Positions 42,891-58,445 of a stretch of DNA of 64,000 nt are shown piece after piece (within the stretch, counting starts at the first letter, position 1; each line of letters opens with the position of its first letter). Source of the DNA: Nonomuraea longispora (GTDB taxonomy: Bacteria > Actinomycetota > Actinomycetes > Streptosporangiales > Streptosporangiaceae); NCBI RefSeq assembly GCF_004348345.1, contig NZ_SMJZ01000013.1, positions 1-64,000 of the forward strand, in the 5' to 3' direction. The notes beneath the pieces are model-generated. The model saw nothing but the letters and a program-made list of their open reading frames with translations, did not search any database and was not told where the DNA came from. A program made the position numbers and the translations under genes.

Positions 42891-43394
42891 ATGAGCGGGA
42901 TCCGGGTGCGCACCAGGGAAGATCTCCGGTCCCAGCGGCGGCGCCGGCCGCCCCGCTGCCTCGGCCACCTCACCGTCGCTCCGCTCTGGCCGATGCACAA
43001 CGCCAACCTCGGCACCCTCCTGCGCACGTGTGACGCGGTCGGCGCGTGCATGGCCGTGCCCCGCCTGCCGTGGGTGCCCGAGGCGCTGGCCAAGGGCAAC
43101 ACCCTGCGCACGAGGGCGTGCGTGCACTGGGTCCGCCCGCTGGACTGGCTGGCCCGCAGGCAGGAGCGGGTGCTCGGCGCCGAACTGGCCGAGGAGGCCA
43201 TCCGGCTGGCCGACCTGCCGATGGCCAGGGAGCCGACCGTGGTCGTGCTGGGCCACGAGTCCACCGGCATCCCCGGCGAGGCGCTCGACCTGCTCGACGC
43301 CGTGGTCGAGATCCCCATGATCGGCACGGGGGCGAGCCTCAACGTGGCGGTGGCCGGCTCGCTCGTCCTGTACAAACTCGCCGGACTCTCCTGA
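42891..43394 (+). CDS. SpoU-type RNA 2'-O-methyltransferase, minimal form
   Basis: The protein has 167 residues, a bare SPOUT domain without the N-terminal substrate-binding domain. Motif 1 is MHNANLGTLLRTCDAVGA near residue 35, motif 2 VVVLGHESTGIPGEALDLL near 118 and motif 3 IPMIGTGASLNVAVAGSLVLYKLAGL at the end. Small TrmH/TrmL-like enzymes of this size methylate tRNA. An AGAGGAG at 42870-42876 is rather far from the ATG. The leader region of the MetRS gene follows 22 bp after its stop. Confidence 0.88.
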   Translation: MSGIRVRTREDLRSQRRRRPPRCLGHLTVAPLWPMHNANLGTLLRTCDAVGACMAVPRLPWVPEALAKGNTLRTRACVHWVRPLDWLARRQERVLGAELAEEAIRLADLPMAREPTVVVLGHESTGIPGEALDLLDAVVEIPMIGTGASLNVAVAGSLVLYKLAGLS

Positions 43395-43404
43395 GCCCGC
43401 CCTG

Positions 43405-43410
43405 TAGCAT
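43405..43410 (+). promoter_or_regulatory. possible -10 element (TAGCAT) for a leaderless metG leader transcript
   Basis: TAGCAT ends 7 bases before the ATG at 43417, the usual distance to a transcription start. That would make the small leader reading frame leaderless. No good -35 is visible. Confidence 0.35.
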
Positions 43411-43416
43411 GACGGC

Positions 43417-43449
43417 ATGACGACGTGCCTGGTGATGACGAGCCCCTAG
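43417..43449 (+). CDS. 10-residue leader peptide (MTTCLVMTSP) ahead of the methionyl-tRNA synthetase gene
   Basis: ATG at 43417 to TAG at 43447-43449 encodes M-T-T-C-L-V-M-T-S-P. The stop codon sits inside a palindrome (43441-43454), and a second hairpin follows before metG. An internal Met codon in a leader before a Met-tRNA synthetase fits ribosome-mediated attenuation. No ribosome binding site is evident, so translation would have to be leaderless. Confidence 0.5.
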   Translation: MTTCLVMTSP

Positions 43450-43496
43450 GGGCTTTCATCGGCGACGTCCTGTTGAGGCCCTGCGAGCGGGGCCTC
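43441..43496 (+). promoter_or_regulatory. attenuator-like hairpins in the metG leader
   Basis: Hairpin 1 is AGCCCCTAGGGGCT (43441-43454), which includes the leader stop codon. Hairpin 2 is GAGGCCC (43475-43481) with GGGCCTC (43490-43496), loop of 8. GGGC at 43450-43453 could instead pair with GCCC at 43478-43481, and ACGACG in the leader frame (43420-43425) with CGTCGT at 43498-43503, giving exclusive alternatives. Confidence 0.5.
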
Positions 43497-43528
43497 TCGT
43501 CGTGTCCGGGGCCCCTTGGAGGCATCCG

Positions 43529-44962
43529 ATGTACATCACGACGACCATCCCCTACGTCAACGCCCGCCCCCACCTGGGGCACGCGCTGGAGCTCGTCCAG
43601 GCCGACGTGCTGGCCAGGCACCACCGGCGGCGCGGCGAGCCCGTACGGTTCCAGACGGGCACCGACGACAACTCCCTGAAGAACGTGCTGGCCGCCGAGA
43701 CGGAGGGCGTGCCGGTGCGGGAGCTGGTGGACAGGAACGCCGCCGCGTTCGAGGGGTTGCGGGGGCCGCTCGACCTGTCGTTCGACGCGTTCATCAGGAC
43801 GAGCAGCCATCCCGGGCATCGCGCGGGCGTCGAGCGGATCTGGGAAGCCACCCGTCACGACCTCTACCTTCGCCACTACGAGGGCCTCTACTGCGTCGGC
43901 TGCGAGCAGTTCTACCCGGCCGGGCCCTGTCCCGACGGCCATGAGGCGCCGCTGCAGCCCGTCTCCGAGCAGAACTGGTTCTTCCGGCTCTCCCGCTACC
44001 GGGACGCCCTGCTCGACCTCATCCGCGGCGGGCGGCTCAGGATCGAGCCGGCGGTACGGCGCAACGAGGTGCTGGCGTTCGTCGAGGCAGGGCTGGACGA
44101 CATCAGCGTCTCGCGGTCGGCCGCACGCGCCAGGGGATGGGGCATCCCGGTGCCCGGCGATCCCGGCCAGGTCGTCTACGTGTGGTGGGACGCGCTGGCC
44201 AACTACGTCACCGCGCTCCAAGGTGGCGACTACGAGCGCTGGTGGGTGGCCGAGCCGCGCAAGGTGCACCTCATGGGCAAGGGCGTGATCCGCTTCCACG
44301 CCGTCTACTGGCCCGCGATGCTGCTGTCCGCGGGCAGGCCGCTGCCCACGGGGATCTTCGTGCACGACTACCTGACGGCGGAGGGCCGCAAGATCAGCAA
44401 GTCGTCCGGCGGCGCCGCCGACCCGGTGGCGCTGGTGGACGCGTACGGGGTCGCCGCCGTGCGGTGGTGGCTGCTGCGCGAGGTGCCGCGCGTGGGCGAC
44501 GCCGACTTCACCGAGGAACGCCTGGTCGCCCGCGCCGACGAGGATCTCGCCAACGGGCTGGGGAACCTGGTCAACCGGGTCGTCACCATGGTGCACCGGT
44601 TCCTGGACGGCCGGGTCCCCGTGGAGGCCCGGGAGGAGGAGCCGTTCGAGGTGGACGAGGCGGTGCACGAGGCGCTGGAGGCGTTCGACTTCCGGCGGGC
44701 CGCGACCGCCGTGCAGGCGCTCGTCGAGCAGGCCAACCGGTACGTCGAGCGCACCCGGCCCTGGGCGCTGCCGCCGGCCGGTCAGGAGGTGGCCCTGGCC
44801 ACGCTGGTGCACGCCTGCCGGACGCTGGCCGTACAGCTGGAGCCCTTCCTGCCCACGGCGGCGGCGCGCGTGGCCGCCGCCGTGCGCGCGAACGCGGAGG
44901 GGCGGCTGCCCAGGCCCGAGCCGCTGTTCCGGCGGCTGGCCGGGTCCCGGCAGCCGGTGTAG
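43529..44962 (+). CDS. metG: methionyl-tRNA synthetase, short form
   Basis: The protein has 477 residues from the ATG at 43529, with TTGGAGG upstream. Class I synthetase signatures: HIGH box as PHLGHALE near residue 15 and KMSKS box as GRKISKSSGG near 288. One zinc-knuckle-type set lies near residue 115 (CVGCEQFYPAGPCPDGH). Family segments VYVWWDALANYVTAL and IRFHAVYWPAMLLSAG are present. Typical bacterial enzymes are 520-650 residues, so this looks like a shorter, probably second MetRS; paralogues can give antibiotic tolerance. It is preceded by a leader-peptide-like region. Confidence 0.9.
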   Translation: MYITTTIPYVNARPHLGHALELVQADVLARHHRRRGEPVRFQTGTDDNSLKNVLAAETEGVPVRELVDRNAAAFEGLRGPLDLSFDAFIRTSSHPGHRAGVERIWEATRHDLYLRHYEGLYCVGCEQFYPAGPCPDGHEAPLQPVSEQNWFFRLSRYRDALLDLIRGGRLRIEPAVRRNEVLAFVEAGLDDISVSRSAARARGWGIPVPGDPGQVVYVWWDALANYVTALQGGDYERWWVAEPRKVHLMGKGVIRFHAVYWPAMLLSAGRPLPTGIFVHDYLTAEGRKISKSSGGAADPVALVDAYGVAAVRWWLLREVPRVGDADFTEERLVARADEDLANGLGNLVNRVVTMVHRFLDGRVPVEAREEEPFEVDEAVHEALEAFDFRRAATAVQALVEQANRYVERTRPWALPPAGQEVALATLVHACRTLAVQLEPFLPTAAARVAAAVRANAEGRLPRPEPLFRRLAGSRQPV

Positions 44963-58262: not shown

Positions 58263-58296
58263 GCGTCCTCCCGGTTGCTCACCTCAGATGTACCAG

Positions 58297-58369
58297 CGCC
58301 CCCGGCTGGAATCGAACCAGCGGCCTCCTGCATCGGAAACAGGTGCGCTCTCCGCTGCGCCACGAGGGC
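58297..58369 (-). tRNA. tRNA-Arg (anticodon CCG)
   Basis: The 73-nt cloverleaf folds completely: acceptor GCCCTCG/CGGGGGC (one T-G pair), T at position 8, D-stem GCGC/GCGC with A14 and A20, anticodon stem CCTGT/GCAGG around loop TTCCGAT, T-arm GCTGG-TTCGATT-CCAGC. Anticodon CCG reads CGG. No encoded CCA. It lies 3 nt after the CAU tRNA. Confidence 0.88.
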
Positions 58370-58372
58370 TCG

Positions 58373-58445
58373 TGGCGGGTGCGGGAATCGAACCCGCCTG
58401 GAGCGACGTATGAAATCGCCGGGCACACCAGCGCCCCCACCCGCC
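58373..58445 (-). tRNA. tRNA with CAU anticodon (Met or Ile2), structurally unusual
   Basis: The 73-nt cloverleaf has acceptor GGCGGGT/ACCCGCC, D-stem GGGC/GCCC with loop GCTGGTGT, anticodon stem GCGAT/GTCGC around loop TTCATAC, and T-arm GCGGG-TTCGATT-CCCGC. The anticodon is CAT. Positions normally U8, A14 and A21 are G, G and T, so the tertiary core is altered, while G18-G19 and the T-loop are normal. Met, fMet or Ile2 identity cannot be fixed, and a decayed copy is possible. Confidence 0.65.

Follow-up and report, generated by a model that had tools for sequence, protein, structure and literature searches.

The short methionyl-tRNA synthetase (MetRS) gene, metG, analysed here in Nonomuraea longispora is preceded by a leader that we read, with a probability of roughly 80%, as a ribosome-mediated attenuator that responds to methionine and controls an accessory MetRS. 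The leader belongs to an ancient switch, common to many actinobacteria and with another form on rhizobial plasmids, which very probably induces the spare enzyme if ribosomes stall for want of charged tRNA-Met. The window, that is, the whole stretch of 64,000 nucleotides analysed, contains the features listed below; six segments were named, A to F, F being the Shine-Dalgarno (SD) region.

43405 to 43410, + strand: -10-like element TAGCAT, 6 nt before the leader ATG
43417 to 43449, + strand: leader frame MTTCLVMTSP, 10 codons and a stop, ATG43417 to TAG43449
43435 to 43437, + strand: putative regulatory Met codon (Met7), followed by the codon ACG
43440 to 43445, + strand: segment A, 5' arm of hairpin 1, covered in the model by a ribosome waiting at Met7
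43449 to 43456, + strand: segment B, 3' arm of hairpin 1, partner of A or, by prediction, of E once A is masked
43475 to 43496, + strand: hairpin 2 (segments C and D), predicted to be folded in both states
43508 to 43515, + strand: segment E, GGGGCCCC, C-rich, within the SD-masking region of the default state and by prediction paired with B during the stall
43518 to 43522, + strand: SD sequence GGAGG of metG, whose ATG is at 43529
43529 to 44962, + strand: accessory MetRS, 477 aa, with HLGH and KISKS motifs

The 10-codon frame, the TAGCAT box and both hairpins, described in an initial annotation of this DNA, are all present and are kept in relatives. The frame does end inside a palindrome, as had been claimed: hairpin 1 spans 43440-43455, with the palindrome AGCCCCTAGGGGCT at 43441-43454, and contains the TAG stop. 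Hairpin 2 (43475-43496) reads GAGGCCCTG-CGAG-CGGGGCCTC. The second of two Met codons has been lost in the window (ATG to ACG); both are present in the closest relative, and the neighbour of Met7 is ATG in most Nonomuraea leaders. The window leader folds only modestly better than its shuffles (z -2.2), and the case for it therefore rests on comparison. Directly upstream lies a gene for a SpoU-type RNA methyltransferase (42891-43394), TrmH-like by family search, below the curated cut-off, and the gene in this position can differ in relatives. Hairpin 1 lies about 46 bp past its stop, as it would if the hairpins were merely the terminator of the trmH-like gene and the small frame were incidental. 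We find this explanation scarcely credible, since a U run is absent, the hairpins lie within or after a frame having its own promoter box, and the leader persists where the upstream gene is another one; conservation already contradicts it.

The window MetRS scores above the cut-off of TIGR00398 and matches Pfam PF09334, and its closest solved structures are MetRS chains, with 2csx, 4dlp and 6ax8 at the top. The leader Met codons and the enzyme encoded after them involve one amino acid, as is characteristic of an amino-acid attenuator. The initial annotation was right in calling it a MetRS gene; it is not the sole one, because the genome also holds a 620-aa open frame for a second MetRS (33% identical), and it is better described as accessory. 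The short type is present in 38 of 55 Nonomuraea genomes and in 22 other genomes, most of which hold a second MetRS too; in Frankia and Crossiella it is apparently the lone MetRS. MetRS paralogues in Nonomuraea are unusually numerous and patchy, and nine genomes carry a further type, about 41% identical to that of the window. A tandem pair of tRNA genes, tRNA-Arg(CCG) and a tRNA with a CAT anticodon (Met), is located at 58296-58445, about 13 kb from the accessory MetRS gene.

A short frame with Met codons, just 5' of or within hairpin 1, is found upstream of short-type MetRS genes across genera, including Nonomuraea, Streptomyces, Actinomadura, Micromonosporaceae, Saccharothrix, Nocardia, Frankia, Kibdelosporangium and others. 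The 92 leaders compared are those with a frame having an internal Met (four without a convincing frame were excluded), so that counts are frequencies among leaders and not among all homologues, and many of the 92 are closely related, so that counts are not independent events. Tandem Met-Met occurs in 76 of the 92 and an isolated internal Met in the other 16, the window having one, against Met-Met in 4 of 453 background short frames. Peptide length and sequence are highly variable, with endings such as VMMAP, RMMPRRRGC, QVMMPRSRGR, RMMRPFSGLLGVR and RMMLMHMPSGLLRAS, each followed by a stop, and the Met codons constantly adjoin hairpin 1. Where the frame has 10 codons, as in 31 Nonomuraea leaders, its start and its TAG stop never vary. 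The reading of TAGCAT as a -10-like element gained support, as TANNNT stands 6-7 nt before the start in 84/92 leaders and before only 15 of 2403 background ATGs (0.6%). When TANNNT-anchored starts upstream of ATGATG were counted in any frame, all 72 of 72 were in frame. The leader thus has the short frame with (tandem) cognate codons that marks a ribosome-mediated amino-acid attenuator. Alignment of relatives had been proposed as a check on the first reading, and the small frame, its Met codon and the stems proved to be conserved across about 30 genera.

Synthetase genes of other bacteria are often under T-boxes, and a riboswitch or T-box could bind its ligand or tRNA directly, the frame being unimportant. 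We consider this very improbable, because no Rfam family matched the window or its relatives, the T-box covariance model and the models of SAM and other methionine riboswitches included, and because conservation lies in a run of in-frame Met codons whose distance from the start varies. An effect of leader translation without methionine sensing, constitutive through an open 5' end or reinitiation, is also unlikely. Leader genes can boost expression via short-distance reinitiation (PMC4833913), at 10-11 nt, whereas the distance from leader stop to metG start is 79 nt in the window and tens of nt in all relatives; moreover, the enrichment of Met codons would be left unexplained.

The association of leader and gene was analysed with a covariance model, R1, built from 34 diverse leaders. 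R1 found exactly one site per genome in 37 of the 55 Nonomuraea, each directly before the short metG, and none in the 17 Nonomuraea genomes without this gene; one carrier was missed. Outside Nonomuraea, the best match again adjoins metG in 13 actinobacterial genomes that carry it, and four genomes of the same class that lack the gene gave zero matches. The upstream regions of housekeeping MetRS genes hold no such frame, save two long unrelated frames in small-genome relatives. By sequence comparison, then, the frame, the Met codons, the promoter box and the stems are conserved, and the leader is linked one-to-one to the accessory MetRS.

The initial annotation had overlooked a third element, the C-rich segment that masks the metG SD. 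In 38 representatives, mostly one per genus, E and F matched their own partners better than foreign ones (z -4.3 to -4.5). As E and F were not picked for pairing, this is fair evidence that SD masking is kept up by compensating change, and the masking, as read from the alignments, is supported by covariation. The same comparison of A:B in Nonomuraea gave a z of -4.5, but A and B were picked as the best hairpin; the scores of A:B and C:D, matched against permuted, are circular since the segments were selected as hairpins. RNAalifold recovered hairpins 1 and 2 alone from a 34-sequence alignment, and hairpin 2 shows little covariation because it hardly varies. Covariation was looked for in B:E, B:C and D:E and none was found; the case for the switched state is made by energies, together with complementarity that is conserved.

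For the folding analysis, the ribosome was modelled as an unpaired footprint at each codon; the footprint is crude, and the resulting estimates apply to equilibrium. The SD was cheapest to open when a Met codon occupied the A site, with a mean change of -2.2 kcal/mol in Nonomuraea (Wilcoxon 2e-10) and -1.0 in other genera (4e-6). This dip persisted at 37 C and when the footprint was changed, and was mostly lost once the stretch from hairpin 1 to the SD had been shuffled; it was not predicted for several Micromonosporaceae and Streptomyces leaders. In the window, placing Met7 in the A site lowered the cost from 7.0 to 3.5 kcal/mol, and the dip was weaker at footprint lengths other than 13 nt (-4.3 at 13 nt, -1.4 at 10, -1.7 at 15). 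Met is the position that alters the fold most in silico, in agreement with the original proposal that stalling there changes the fold.

In the ensembles without a ribosome A:B and E:F are dominant, and with the ribosome at the stop codon E:F is still dominant. With the ribosome at Met, B:E appears in 46/92 leaders, most Nonomuraea among them, and E:F is weaker, while hairpin 2 is intact in 88/92; B:E amounts to 13 expected pairs in the stalled state of the window. The two hairpins had been thought to pair in exclusive ways with each other. This does not hold at equilibrium, where the partner of B is E and hairpin 2 stays folded. The exchange between the hairpins, B:C, was rarely formed at equilibrium (6/92 leaders) and is retained only as a kinetic or termination option; a cascade of B:C then D:E was rejected, as D:E was almost never formed.

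Conservation and the predicted fold change at Met both support the idea of a ribosome-mediated attenuator, in which the transcription start, the pause at Met, B:E pairing and the resulting induction are inferred. Transcription would probably begin at the leader ATG itself, which implies that the leader is translated without an SD. By default, when the leader is read to its stop or carries no ribosome, A:B would be paired, hairpin 2 formed and the SD masked by E, and little MetRS would be made. A ribosome at the stop codon would cover B, and normal translation should therefore keep metG off. Scarcity of charged elongator Met-tRNA would make the ribosome wait at the Met codon and hide A; the freed B could then pair with E around hairpin 2, opening the SD so that MetRS is made. 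Premature termination at hairpin 2 may act additionally or instead. Methionine is an odd sensor, because scarce charged initiator tRNA should also hinder the start of the leader.

Six related MetRS genes on Rhizobiaceae plasmids, of a sister clade, have leaders with Met-Met-Met (MNRSLANATMMMPRS, followed by a stop, and kin), which are candidate methionine attenuators in Pseudomonadota. These leaders are mostly followed, at the position of hairpin 2, by a CCGCC/GGCGG terminator-like hairpin, with a U run in 4/6; in those four, its relative stability falls from about 13-15 to about 4-6 kcal/mol with the Met codons in the A site. In the tree (midpoint-rooted), the actinobacterial and rhizobial leader-bearing MetRS fall together (support 99/98) and separately from the other sampled types. 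The MetRS genes of one Sinorhizobium and one Sphingomonas plasmid, which group with housekeeping enzymes, have no such leader. Upstream of a Thermomicrobiales metG, the motif GGTGGTACCACGAG, resembling a T-box, is found in place of a leader peptide.

The rhizobial hairpins would suit a classical transcription attenuator, with hairpin 2 as the terminator, B:C as the antiterminator and little control through the SD, as would two properties of the actinobacterial leaders: the cost of opening D is about 5 kcal/mol lower at Met, and ten of them have at least 5 U in the 9 nt past hairpin 2. For the window we hold this mechanism possible but doubtful. No intrinsic terminator, the hallmark of a trp-type attenuator, is apparent there before metG, and a scan of the window for promoter and terminator consensus returned nothing; hairpin 2 beats B:C at equilibrium, and a terminator alone leaves the covarying SD-masking segment unexplained. 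SD masking is the better-supported output in the window. Given the terminator-like hairpins of the Rhizobiaceae and their destabilisation at Met, terminating transcription at hairpin 2 could be an output that is either ancestral or parallel.

To our knowledge, hardly any amino-acid attenuator is known to use Met codons, methionine being also the first residue of every protein. A Met-codon leader that is conserved across one phylum, recurs in a second, is tied to one MetRS clade and is absent from Rfam makes it testable how elongator Met-tRNA can be sensed separately from initiation. No MetRS leader of this kind was found in the open-access literature searched, and the earlier statement that no such metG leader has been described stands for Rfam and this literature. 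Tentatively, the leader-bearing enzymes could be a distinct, partly plasmid-borne MetRS family of Actinomycetota and Rhizobiaceae, in which a Met-codon attenuator makes a self-inducing reserve enzyme that confers inhibitor tolerance. Inhibition of the housekeeping MetRS, by a natural inhibitor for example, would leave tRNA-Met uncharged and so induce the spare, differently built MetRS. This view is drawn from analogy, not data: as cited in PMC4787780, the auxiliary antibiotic-resistant TrpRS of Streptomyces coelicolor has an attenuator (Vecchione and Sello 2010), and S. pneumoniae subpopulations with two MetRS genes vary in sensitivity to MetRS inhibitors (Gentry 2003). The leader points to a MetRS that antibiotic producers could possibly induce as a backup or for resistance.

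In erm-type translational attenuators, a ribosome stalled on a leader peptide unmasks the downstream SD, as is predicted here; their stall, however, comes from antibiotic and nascent chain, not from codon starvation. The actinobacterial translational ileS T-boxes (PMC1262725) likewise control a synthetase gene by SD masking, but sense tRNA directly and have no leader peptide. The same 2005 survey of actinobacterial attenuators predicted them for trpS and leuS and reported no conserved structure for methionine operons. A reannotation of S. lividans gives leaders for alaS, thrS, leuS, trpS and metNIQ, its Table 4 containing no MetRS gene (PMC8079986). The leaders in both studies resemble ours in being short and often leaderless and in containing cognate codons, with Met in the metNIQ leader; the latter has 29 aa, precedes a transporter and, unlike most of the MetRS leaders, has no Met-Met. 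Closest in logic, from what is cited of it in PMC4787780, is the S. coelicolor TrpRS attenuator, which is also ribosome-mediated and stands before an accessory aminoacyl-tRNA synthetase in an actinomycete. That system responds to tryptophan and is reported to be transcriptional, whereas the present one would respond to methionine through a different RNA and by SD masking.
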